DNA of 39,964 nt from Planctomycetota bacterium (GTDB lineage: Bacteria > Planctomycetota > UBA1135), in assembly GCA_014382805.1 (NCBI GenBank), contig JACNIZ010000175.1:1-39964 (forward strand), given 5' to 3'. A model generated the notes under the pieces. The model saw only the letters and a list, made by a program, of their open reading frames with translations. It was not told where the DNA came from and made no database searches. The number at the start of each line of letters is the position of its first letter. Within the stretch, counting starts at the first letter, position 1. A program made the translations under genes and the position numbers. Positions 15,444 through 17,935 of this stretch are shown piece by piece.

Positions 15444-15482
15444 GGATGCGGGTTGATTACCGCCGGCATCAGAGTTTCCCTA
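15441..15482. terminator. Possible bidirectional terminator between convergent genes
   Basis: TAGGGA (15441-15446) and TCCCTA (15477-15482) are inverted copies that include the stop codons of both converging genes. An inner GATGC (15445-15449)/GCATC (15466-15470) pair offers a second stem. No long T-run is present, so this is tentative. Confidence 0.4.
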
Positions 15483-16670
15483 ATCCTTATCTTCTTGCAA
15501 CGCGGGCGGAGTCAGCATCAGGCGCCCAGGATTGGGCGTTTGCGTGAGCTGGGCTTCACCCGCCGGAGGGAAGTTTAAGTGCAGATCCAACGCTTGGGAT
15601 TCACGTAACACTTGCAAGGATGCACTACTGCGGACCAGCCTCAATGCATAAAATAAGGAGGCAAAGTCTTCGGTCGGATAACCCTCTAAGCCAAGCAAGT
15701 AGTCGCCGCTCTCCACTTTCGCAGCTGCAGCAGGCCCGTTTGGCTCCACGTGCAAAACTCTAAGCCCAGTGCGCATGGCCAGCCCTAAATCACGACGTAT
15801 GGCTGGTGGAATCACGGCGACTTGAACTTCAATCCCTAGAGTCGGGCGAGGAAGCTCAGGAGGCAATGCCAAATGCTCCCCGAAAAGATGAAGCACCTTA
15901 TGCAGAGGAATGGCGAAGCTAATGCCAGAAGATTGGCGCGCTCCAACCAAAGCTTCGGAGCTGCCTTGACCGTCCGCGGAAAGCAGCCGGAAATCACTTA
16001 GCGATGACATCGCGATGGCGATGACTCTGCCTTTGCAATCGGCAATCATGCCGCCACCATCACCTGGATTCATCGGGTTCGTGACCTGAATTAAATCGGT
16101 GGACTTGCCTATATTGCGGGCCCTACCGGAAAGCATGCCCATTCCAAAGCTGCCGTCTAGCCCGAATGGATTACCCAACGAAAAAGTGATCGACCCTATT
16201 GGCATAGCTTCGCAGATGCCAAAGGGCGGGGCTTCCAAACGTAGGCCTGGCACGTTGATCAAACTCAAGCCAAAGCCCTCGGCATGGGCGATTGGAGTTC
16301 CGGGATAGTGCTGACCATCCAAATCGACCACCTGCACAGCAGCGTCCGCGCCAATTTGCCAAATTCCCGGAATGACCACCATGCAGCCATTTTCGGTCTC
16401 CCTAAGCACGACCCCGGAAACCACAAAATTGGTGGTCTTTTTCTCTTCGTTGGGTTTAGGCAAGGCAGCAGGTCCGATGCCGGTCAATTGCACTTGAACC
16501 AAACTCGGGCGCAGTACACGATAAATTTTTATGTACTCGCGCTCACACTGACCGAGCTGGCTGAATTGATTTTCCAACTCCAGCGGCCCAGGGCGGAGCA
16601 TCGATTCAGGGCAGGGTTCCACCTGCTCCACCGCAACGGCACAGGCGTAAAGAAGGAATGCGGTTATCAC
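15480..16670 (-). CDS. HtrA/DegP-like pseudoprotease with PDZ domain
   Basis: A 396-residue exported protein with trypsin-like fold landmarks of HtrA. These are FVVSGVVLR (family: GSGVII), SITFSLGNPFGLDGS, TDLIQVTNPMNPGDGGGMIA, GRVIAIA and GISFAIPLHKVL, followed by one PDZ domain (about 285-375; LRVLHVEPNGPAAAAKVESG). All three catalytic positions look lost. The His segment reads MVVIPGIW instead of TNNHVV, the Asp segment reads GFGLSLINV instead of DLAVLKV, and the Ser motif GNSGG is GDGGG (Gly205). The start is GTG 16670 with a short hydrophobic N-terminus (MITAFLLYACAVAVEQ). It is the third gene of a sigma/anti-sigma operon, 13 bases after the anti-sigma gene. That is where active MucD/DegP-type proteases occur in other bacteria, so a peptide-sensing role is my inference. 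Confidence 0.8.
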   Translation of the reverse strand: MITAFLLYACAVAVEQVEPCPESMLRPGPLELENQFSQLGQCEREYIKIYRVLRPSLVQVQLTGIGPAALPKPNEEKKTTNFVVSGVVLRETENGCMVVIPGIWQIGADAAVQVVDLDGQHYPGTPIAHAEGFGLSLINVPGLRLEAPPFGICEAMPIGSITFSLGNPFGLDGSFGMGMLSGRARNIGKSTDLIQVTNPMNPGDGGGMIADCKGRVIAIAMSSLSDFRLLSADGQGSSEALVGARQSSGISFAIPLHKVLHLFGEHLALPPELPRPTLGIEVQVAVIPPAIRRDLGLAMRTGLRVLHVEPNGPAAAAKVESGDYLLGLEGYPTEDFASLFYALRLVRSSASLQVLRESQALDLHLNFPPAGEAQLTQTPNPGRLMLTPPALQEDKD

Positions 16671-16683
16671 CGTTTAACTGCGC

Positions 16684-17232
16684 CTAGAATTCCTTTTTCT
16701 CTGGAGGCGCCACATCCAATCCCTGCGTATCGTGATGCTTAGTAGCAGGCTCGGAAACCAAATCTGGATTGGGAACCGCAGCGGGGTTCACGCGCAGCAT
16801 GTGCAAAAGATCAGGGAAGCTTGCAGGGTGCAGGCCAGGCTCTTCGTTCTCAGCTGGCTGAACGACCACTGGATTCTGATCGCCGCTGCCGGGACCGACA
16901 TCAGCCTTGGGGTAAAAAATCACCGCCAACATCAAAGCAGCTGCAGTCATCAAAACCGGCGCAAAAGCACCTCGGCGGAACCACGGCAAACGATGGCGTC
17001 CAGCAGCATCTACGGCGTCTAAACGAGCATCGAGCTCACTCCAGAGACTTTCGCTCGGCCGTTCGGTTTCACGAATTTCCTGAAGGGCAACCCGAGCATC
17101 TCGGAAAGCTGAAAGCTCGGCAGCGCATAACGCGCAAGAAGCGATGTGAGCCTCCACTTGGGAAGCTTCGGCAACTGTTAGATCCCCACCAGCATGGAGG
17201 GCGAGTAGTTCTTCGGGAAGATTACAGCTCAT
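16684..17232 (-). CDS. Zinc-finger membrane anti-sigma factor
   Basis: A 182-residue single-pass protein. The cytoplasmic N-terminal ZAS-type domain has Cys3 and HIASCALC (His29, Cys33, Cys36), the HxxxCxxC signature of RsrA/ChrR-type and RsiW-type anti-sigma factors. A membrane helix spans about 89-107 (AFAPVLMTAAALMLAVIFYP). The periplasmic C-terminal part (about 108-182) is Pro/Asn/Glu rich and unrecognised, and is probably the signal-receiving side. Its ATG overlaps the sigma-factor stop by four bases (ATGA), so it should bind that sigma factor. The zinc site may be redox-sensitive, but the sequence cannot show that. Confidence 0.88.
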   Translation of the reverse strand: MSCNLPEELLALHAGGDLTVAEASQVEAHIASCALCAAELSAFRDARVALQEIRETERPSESLWSELDARLDAVDAAGRHRLPWFRRGAFAPVLMTAAALMLAVIFYPKADVGPGSGDQNPVVVQPAENEEPGLHPASFPDLLHMLRVNPAAVPNPDLVSEPATKHHDTQGLDVAPPEKKEF

Positions 17233-17876
17233 AGCAAATCCGCTCCTTCTTCTTTACCTAGCATGCGTTCCCAGTGCTCGCGAAACAGTTTCCGAGCATG
17301 ATGCAAACGCCACCGAACTGTACCAGGAGTGGCACCCACTCGGTCCCCAATTTCGCCACAGGACAGTCCTTCCAAATCCCTTAATGCCAAAACGACGCGG
17401 AATTTGTCCGGTAAATCCGCCAGGATGTTGCGAACCAATTTTTGGCGCTCGGTGGCAGAGGCTTCCTGGGCTGGACTACGGCGATTGGAATCCCAGTCGC
17501 CGCTAAGCTCCACTGCCGCTCCTGGAGTACCTGAGGCTTGACGTCGAGCCCGGTCAACCGCCTGGTTGCGCAGGATTCGGTAAAACCAAGTGCTGAACTT
17601 CCGTTTCAGGTCAAACTTAGCCCGGTGGGCATAGACCTTGAGGAAGGCCTCCTGTGCTACTTCTCGTGCCGTTTCGTAGCTACCTACGATGGCACGGGCG
17701 GTGTGGGTAGCCTTGCCCTCATACCGTTCGACAAGTTGACGGAAAGCGCTGCGGTCGCCATCAATACAGAGGGCGAACAACTCTTCATCCGTCAATTGCG
17801 CACGAGGATCTGAAGCGGCCTCGGGCGGTGATTCAAGGGAAGGTGTACGGACCAATCGCAAAGCGGGGGAACTCAT
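17229..17876 (-). CDS. ECF RNA polymerase sigma factor
   Basis: A 215-residue group IV sigma factor. Region 2 (about 28-105) has SAFRQLVERYEGKATHTARA, AREVAQEAFLKVY and FSTWFYRILRNQAVDRAR (-10 recognition). Region 4 (about 148-205) has LADLPDKFRVVLALRDLEG and SCGEIGDRVGATPGTVRWRL with a helix-turn-helix (-35 recognition). The ~25 residues before region 2 are a disordered extension. It lies 59 bases after accA and is coupled to its anti-sigma gene. A TGAACC/TCAGCG pair with a 17-base spacer occurs upstream and could be an autoregulated ECF promoter, but I do not consider it established. Confidence 0.94.
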   Translation of the reverse strand: MSSPALRLVRTPSLESPPEAASDPRAQLTDEELFALCIDGDRSAFRQLVERYEGKATHTARAIVGSYETAREVAQEAFLKVYAHRAKFDLKRKFSTWFYRILRNQAVDRARRQASGTPGAAVELSGDWDSNRRSPAQEASATERQKLVRNILADLPDKFRVVLALRDLEGLSCGEIGDRVGATPGTVRWRLHHARKLFREHWERMLGKEEGADLL

Positions 17877-17935
17877 GTTCTTGCCCGGCTTACGCTGAGC
17901 AAAGACAGAATGTTAGGTTCATTCAGGGATTTTCG

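Follow-up and report, generated by a model that had tools for sequence, protein, structure and literature searches.

What might an HtrA-like protein do beside a membrane anti-sigma factor once it has lost the residues with which HtrA proteases cut? The question is raised by three genes on the minus strand, at positions 15480-17876 of a planctomycete contig of 39,964 nucleotides (JACNIZ010000175.1, assembly GCA_014382805.1; the whole stretch analysed is referred to as the window), which code for a sigma factor of the ECF type, an anti-sigma factor with a zinc finger and an HtrA-like protein predicted to be exported. The comparisons reported here point to a predicted pseudoprotease whose PDZ domain may hold the C-terminus of the anti-sigma factor.

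An ECF sigma factor operon with a third, HtrA-like gene

The sigma factor (215 aa; 17229..17876, minus strand) has regions 2 and 4 only, both above the Pfam cut-off (Sigma70_r2, 3e-16; Sigma70_r4_2, 4e-9), which places it among the ECF factors, and it scores 101.7 with TIGR02937 (3e-29; cut-off 42.9). Its gene overlaps that of the anti-sigma factor (182 aa; 16684..17232, minus strand) by 4 bp, and the HtrA-like gene (396 aa; 15480..16670, minus strand) starts with a GTG codon after a gap of 13 bp; the open reading frames thus bear out the tight coupling that a first-pass annotation of this DNA had described. The anti-sigma factor matched zf-HC2 (7e-4; 20.0 bits, cut-off 22.2 bits) and NF052375 (4.5e-12), both below cut-off. 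It carries the zinc motif H29-x3-C33-x2-C36 (17125..17148, minus strand) and is encoded next to an ECF sigma gene, the combination by which ZAS-type zinc-binding anti-sigma factors are recognized, and C3, H29, C33 and C36 are invariant among the aligned anti-sigma factors. Its place in the operon suggests that it binds the cognate sigma factor, and a hydrophobic run at about residues 88-107 (16912..16971, minus strand) is predicted to form a single transmembrane segment. One orthologue (L146 of genome G034, family f6) has lost the H-x3-C-x2-C motif, yet its operon is retained and its end, GGVDL, is still hydrophobic.

HtrA fold and catalytic positions of the third protein

The third protein consists of a signal-like N-terminus (a short, putative signal peptide), an inactive trypsin fold and one PDZ domain, in this order. 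Pfam placed Trypsin_2 above its cut-off (2e-9) and PDZ_2 just below, and found a trypsin fold followed by PDZ in 21/21 members. The NCBIfam model degP_htrA_DO matched at 1e-27, but with 97 bits against a cut-off of 416, and the DegS model TIGR02038 matched at 7e-15 with 54.9 bits, below its cut-off of 422.95 bits. When a profile of the orthologues was compared with the PDB, it matched DegP (3e-51), AlgW (about 1e-40) and DegS (about 1e-37). An AlphaFold2 model made from 10 sequences reached a mean pLDDT of 72, with low confidence at both termini and at residues 67-78 and 224-247; Foldseek matched it to DegP, Deg1, DegQ, AlgW and DegS, with E values of 1e-20 to 1e-17 and TM-scores of 0.4-0.56, and we attribute the large rmsd of these matches to the relative orientation of the domains.

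Two references, DegP and a paralogue from the same genome that is active and has the full triad (TNYHVV, TDLAVI, NPGNSGG), were aligned with the window protein, and they confirmed the earlier reading that all three of its catalytic positions are replaced. The equivalent of TNNHVV is VVIPGIW (residues 98-104; 16359..16379, minus strand), which contains no His; the catalytic His falls there at I103/W104, with the exact column uncertain by 1-2 residues. The Asp position is taken by G134 (16269..16271, minus strand) and the Ser position by G205 in NPGDGGG (16056..16058, minus strand), so that the His-Asp-Ser triad which defines the S1C proteases HtrA, DegP and DegS is absent. Across 21 orthologues the Asp column holds Gly in 18, Arg in two and Asp in one, and the Ser column, flanked by Asp204 (almost invariant) and Gly206 (fully invariant), holds Gly in 12, Ala in three, Ser in two and His, Cys, Asn and Arg in one each. 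Three otherwise dead orthologues (L042, L049 and L040) carry a lone Ser (GDSGG, ADSGG) or a lone Asp at a catalytic position, none has an intact triad, and the sole His aligned within the His region, which aligns imprecisely, lies in a variable loop insertion of L049. A search for a conserved His, Cys or Lys across the 21 orthologues found none. With no conserved His at any position, a triad at shifted positions is ruled out on the ground of conservation. The two findings that the first-pass annotation had named as refuting its reading, a shifted intact triad and orthologues with a triad, were thus both looked for, and neither appeared. Taken together, these alignments show that the third gene encodes a conserved HtrA that is, as predicted from its residues, non-catalytic, a pseudoprotease referred to below as pseudo-HtrA.

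Conservation and distribution

The syntenic operon recurs in another 20 genomes from the GTDB family to which this one belongs; an intact triad is present in none of them, and the neighbourhood of purL, accA, sigma factor, anti-sigma factor, pseudo-HtrA, TPR lipoprotein, ndk and ATP synthase is shared wherever the contig reaches. The dN/dS of pseudo-HtrA is about 0.07 (close pairs, dS not saturated), a value which, with the deep synteny, rules out a decaying pseudogene. The first-pass annotation had proposed that the protein is selectively retained without catalysis, and the family-wide synteny, the low dN/dS and the want of both a conserved His and any intact triad support this. A locus search with alignment subset A2 gave 9 named loci, all of them in Planctomycetota MAGs; the same kind of search with the single window protein as query gave no relatives.

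Beyond the family, an accA-linked sigma/anti-sigma pair occurs in most of the order. In families f2, f4, f6 and f7 a diverged and likewise non-catalytic trypsin-PDZ protein is third in the accA-linked operon; the f4 homologue matches directly, and hhalign over both domains gave 1e-33 for f7, 1e-19 for f6 and 3e-15 for f2. At the loci examined in f5 and f8 the only PDZ protein, where there is one at all, is of the HEAT-like kind, and genus g12, inside the family, has lost pseudo-HtrA and carries the TPR gene directly after the anti-sigma gene. A search at class level for an operon of this kind with an active HtrA supplied no outgroup, since among the genomes compared the class is represented by this one order only. 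In the order's other families the genes are followed by one for a second protein of the periplasm, which combines HEAT-like repeats with a PDZ domain (L090, on the minus strand, and L130, L131, L132, L134, L135, L137, L138, L146, L147 and L149) and could serve as an additional anti-sigma partner. At the f3 locus (L134) this HEAT-PDZ protein is the only PDZ neighbour, and the anti-sigma factor still ends in Phe. The window genome also has three M50 loci, one of which is RseP-like with a PDZ match.

A candidate autoregulatory promoter

Just 5' of the sigma start codon lies an ECF-type candidate autoregulatory promoter, CTAAC-N16/17-CGTAA (CTAACATTCTGTCTTTGCTCAGCGTAA; 17890..17916, minus strand). 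The motif YAAC-N16/17-CGTA, which we take to resemble the SigW type, precedes the sigma gene at almost every locus of the family (as an AAAC variant in one), usually 13-18 nt from the start codon, compared to a background density of 0.11 per kb elsewhere, and similarly placed copies occur in several further families. Because this conserved motif precedes the sigma gene, the sigma factor very probably transcribes its own operon, pseudo-HtrA included. A stricter form of the pattern had 14 matches genome-wide versus 46 for its reversed control, which suggests that it is depleted elsewhere in the genome, and a search for a regulon by promoter pattern across the genome yielded few convincing targets. 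In genome G002 the motif lies 24 nt 5' of an active HtrA gene (L198, G002:C35:137635-137660) and 9 nt 5' of a peptidase-like gene identified by eye (L192, G002:C35:63612-63637), both of which are candidate members of the sigma regulon; the link to an active HtrA is clear in G002 only and not in the window genome. At the f8 loci that lack pseudo-HtrA, the motif occurs a second time, just 5' of the anti-sigma gene (L092, L139, L140, L141, L142, L143, L155, L160, L162, L163, L165 and L169).

The anti-sigma C-terminus and the PDZ domain

The anti-sigma factor of the window ends in the tetrapeptide KKEF-COOH (16687..16698, minus strand), a candidate PDZ ligand. Among 32 anti-sigma factors partnered with a pseudo-HtrA, the last residue is Phe in 19, Tyr in five, His in four, Leu in three and Trp in one; the position before it (-1) is Asp in 13, Ser in six and Glu in five, and positions -2 and -3 are 44-47% Arg or Lys, giving the consensus [RK]-x-[DES]-F-COOH. 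Phe, Tyr or Trp thus ends 78% of the partnered proteins, compared to 3.9% of the C-termini of long ORFs at these loci. The periplasmic parts vary in length and align poorly, yet they close with the same kind of residue. Because KEF is encoded by AAGGAATTC, it was considered whether the [RK]-x-[DE]-F end had arisen from a Shine-Dalgarno sequence, and this was ruled out: the aromatic end is kept with intergenic gaps of 26-117 nt and with CAT, TGG, CTC and TAC codons, and since the terminal residue is independent of both codon and gap (-1 to 117 nt overall), no buried ribosome-binding site accounts for it.

The distribution of this end follows that of pseudo-HtrA. Phe, Tyr or Trp is terminal in 25 of the 32 anti-sigma factors with pseudo-HtrA and in 3 of the 34 orthologous ones without (Fisher p about 1e-8, and 4e-7 at genus level, both ignoring ancestry), and with His and Leu added, a set widened after seeing the data, the counts are 32/32 and 6/34, whereas Arg or Lys is terminal in 0/32 and 22/34, respectively. 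The exceptions without pseudo-HtrA are f3 (...NQGRF) and genus g40 of f8 (...PRW). On the sigma tree the presence of pseudo-HtrA changes four times; the tail changes along with it in f8, f5 and g12 (the last without an aromatic end, GHPRR) and is unchanged in f3, so that three changes are in the predicted direction and none in the opposite one, a number too small for an independent-contrast test to reach significance. Wherever a pseudo-HtrA partner is encoded, the anti-sigma factor keeps a free C-terminus that is aromatic or, rarely, Leu.

The PDZ domain of pseudo-HtrA (about residues 276-366; 15573..15845, minus strand) was delimited by Pfam PDZ_2/PDZ_6 and by the strands and helices of the model, and position 279 in its carboxylate-binding loop, TLGIE (15828..15842, minus strand), is occupied by Gly in all 23 of the sequences aligned. 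R-P-T-L-G-I-E, the loop of the window protein, corresponds to R279-G-W281-L282-G-V284-E285 of AlgW, three residues of which (W281, L282 and V284) touch the aromatic end of the peptide (PMC8545111), and the PDZ domains of both DegS and AlgW bind aromatic C-termini of outer-membrane proteins (OMPs) or MucE (PMC8103513, PMC8545111). The new element of this operon is an anti-sigma factor which is paired with a pseudo-HtrA and which, judged from its residues, ends in what looks like a conserved aromatic PDZ ligand.

Discussion

On balance, and by a modest degree, we consider it probable that pseudo-HtrA is a periplasmic partner of the anti-sigma factor, the PDZ domain of which holds and shields the anti-sigma C-terminus until competitor peptides release it. 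In resting cells the PDZ domain would grip the [RK]-x-[DES]-F-COOH end, and because pseudo-HtrA cannot cut, it would shield the tail from the true proteases, namely the RseP-like site-2 protease and the active HtrA paralogues of the genome. A competing C-terminal peptide, for instance of unfolded outer-membrane proteins, could then take the PDZ domain, or the partner could be titrated away, upon which the tail would become accessible and be degraded, and the sigma factor would be released. From its own promoter the released sigma factor would provide more of the pseudo-HtrA partner and so close a negative loop. The suggestion of the first-pass annotation that the protein is a peptide-binding sensor which may shield the periplasmic part of the anti-sigma factor is strengthened by the PDZ-ligand-like C-terminus and the invariant carboxylate loop, from which we infer binding, shielding and ligand. 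A more specific and rather tentative version holds that the anti-sigma tail mimics OMP ends and that misfolded OMP C-termini displace it from the PDZ domain, so that competition between peptides would be sensed without a protease; if this is true, much of a planctomycete order would have converted DegS-type sensing by cleavage into a form based on binding.

The same components could also work with the opposite sign. Pseudo-HtrA might be an adaptor that presents the anti-sigma tail to an active protease and promotes sigma activation, in the way in which the pseudoprotease MamO activates MamE-dependent proteolysis (PMC4794232); the genome encodes an active HtrA paralogue with full triad as well as an M50 protease that is RseP-like and has a PDZ match, and the active HtrA gene of G002 shares the promoter motif 24 nt upstream. 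We regard this as unlikely: these data fit shielding as well and do not distinguish the sign of the effect, and the promoter link is clear only in G002 and not in the window genome. It is also conceivable, but distinctly doubtful, that the PDZ domain binds OMP ends as in DegS, that a change in shape of the dead domain reaches the anti-sigma factor through another surface, and that the aromatic end serves a different protein, e.g. RseP. The aromatic OMP/MucE ligands of DegS and AlgW (PMC8103513, PMC8545111) agree with such a sensor, as does the Phe end of f3 without pseudo-HtrA, and RseP is reported to require that RseA end in a hydrophobic residue (reference 40 of PMC8545111). However, a role for RseP only predicts aromatic ends also where pseudo-HtrA is missing, and 28 of the 34 such anti-sigma factors end otherwise, mostly in Arg.

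That tail and pseudo-HtrA were merely inherited together within families, their correlation having no functional basis, is very unlikely. The few independent transitions on the sigma tree (four) would allow it, but the terminal residue class is kept in 32/32 partnered proteins though the rest of the tail aligns poorly and codons and lengths vary, and g12 changed both traits inside the family. Most improbable of all is that the protein is a remnant enzyme working with a different catalytic set, or a pseudogene in decay: the nearly invariant Asp204 beside the lost Ser and the lone Asp or Ser of three orthologues might hint at one or the other, but no His, Cys or Lys is conserved across the orthologues and the Ser position holds seven different residues, and the dN/dS of about 0.07 speaks against decay.

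If the shielding partner is the right reading, a stress-sensing pathway known for its proteolytic switch would here have its site-1 protease turned into a pseudoenzyme and its anti-sigma factor carrying the PDZ peptide. The natural presence and loss of pseudo-HtrA, together with its diverged families, would offer a comparative system in which PDZ binding by HtrA is separated from catalysis, and the operon a testable way into envelope-stress regulation in Planctomycetota. In the open-access literature (subscription papers lay outside the search) we found HtrA proteins that regulate sigma factors and HtrA pseudoproteases, but not their combination.

The mycobacterial sigE-rseA-htrA operon has the same gene order, in another phylum, and its HtrAs have been studied as serine proteases. 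With the RpoE-RseA-DegS-RseP system of E. coli and the AlgU-MucA-AlgW system of P. aeruginosa the window system has in common an ECF sigma factor, a membrane anti-sigma factor, an HtrA protein of trypsin-PDZ type, a site-2 protease and a PDZ type that accepts C-terminal aromatic residues. In contrast, DegS and AlgW are active site-1 proteases with OMP or MucE ends as PDZ ligands, while the HtrA protein of the window is dead and encoded inside the sigma operon, and its candidate ligand is the anti-sigma factor's own C-terminus. By function pseudo-HtrA would resemble RseB/MucB, a periplasmic protein encoded in the operon to which protection of the anti-sigma factor is attributed, but no homology between them was found: for the window protein, Pfam and the structure matches listed give trypsin-PDZ proteins only, and not the RseB fold. 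Like MamO of magnetotactic bacteria it is an HtrA-family pseudoprotease for which non-catalytic roles come into question (PMC4794232); MamO, however, acts in magnetosomes, binds metal via a di-His motif and has no link to a sigma/anti-sigma pair, and a TauE domain, a MamO-type feature, was absent from the window protein in the Pfam scan. Although it lacks the S1C triad and is not RseB, the window system thus resembles a regulator of the DegS/RseB type.
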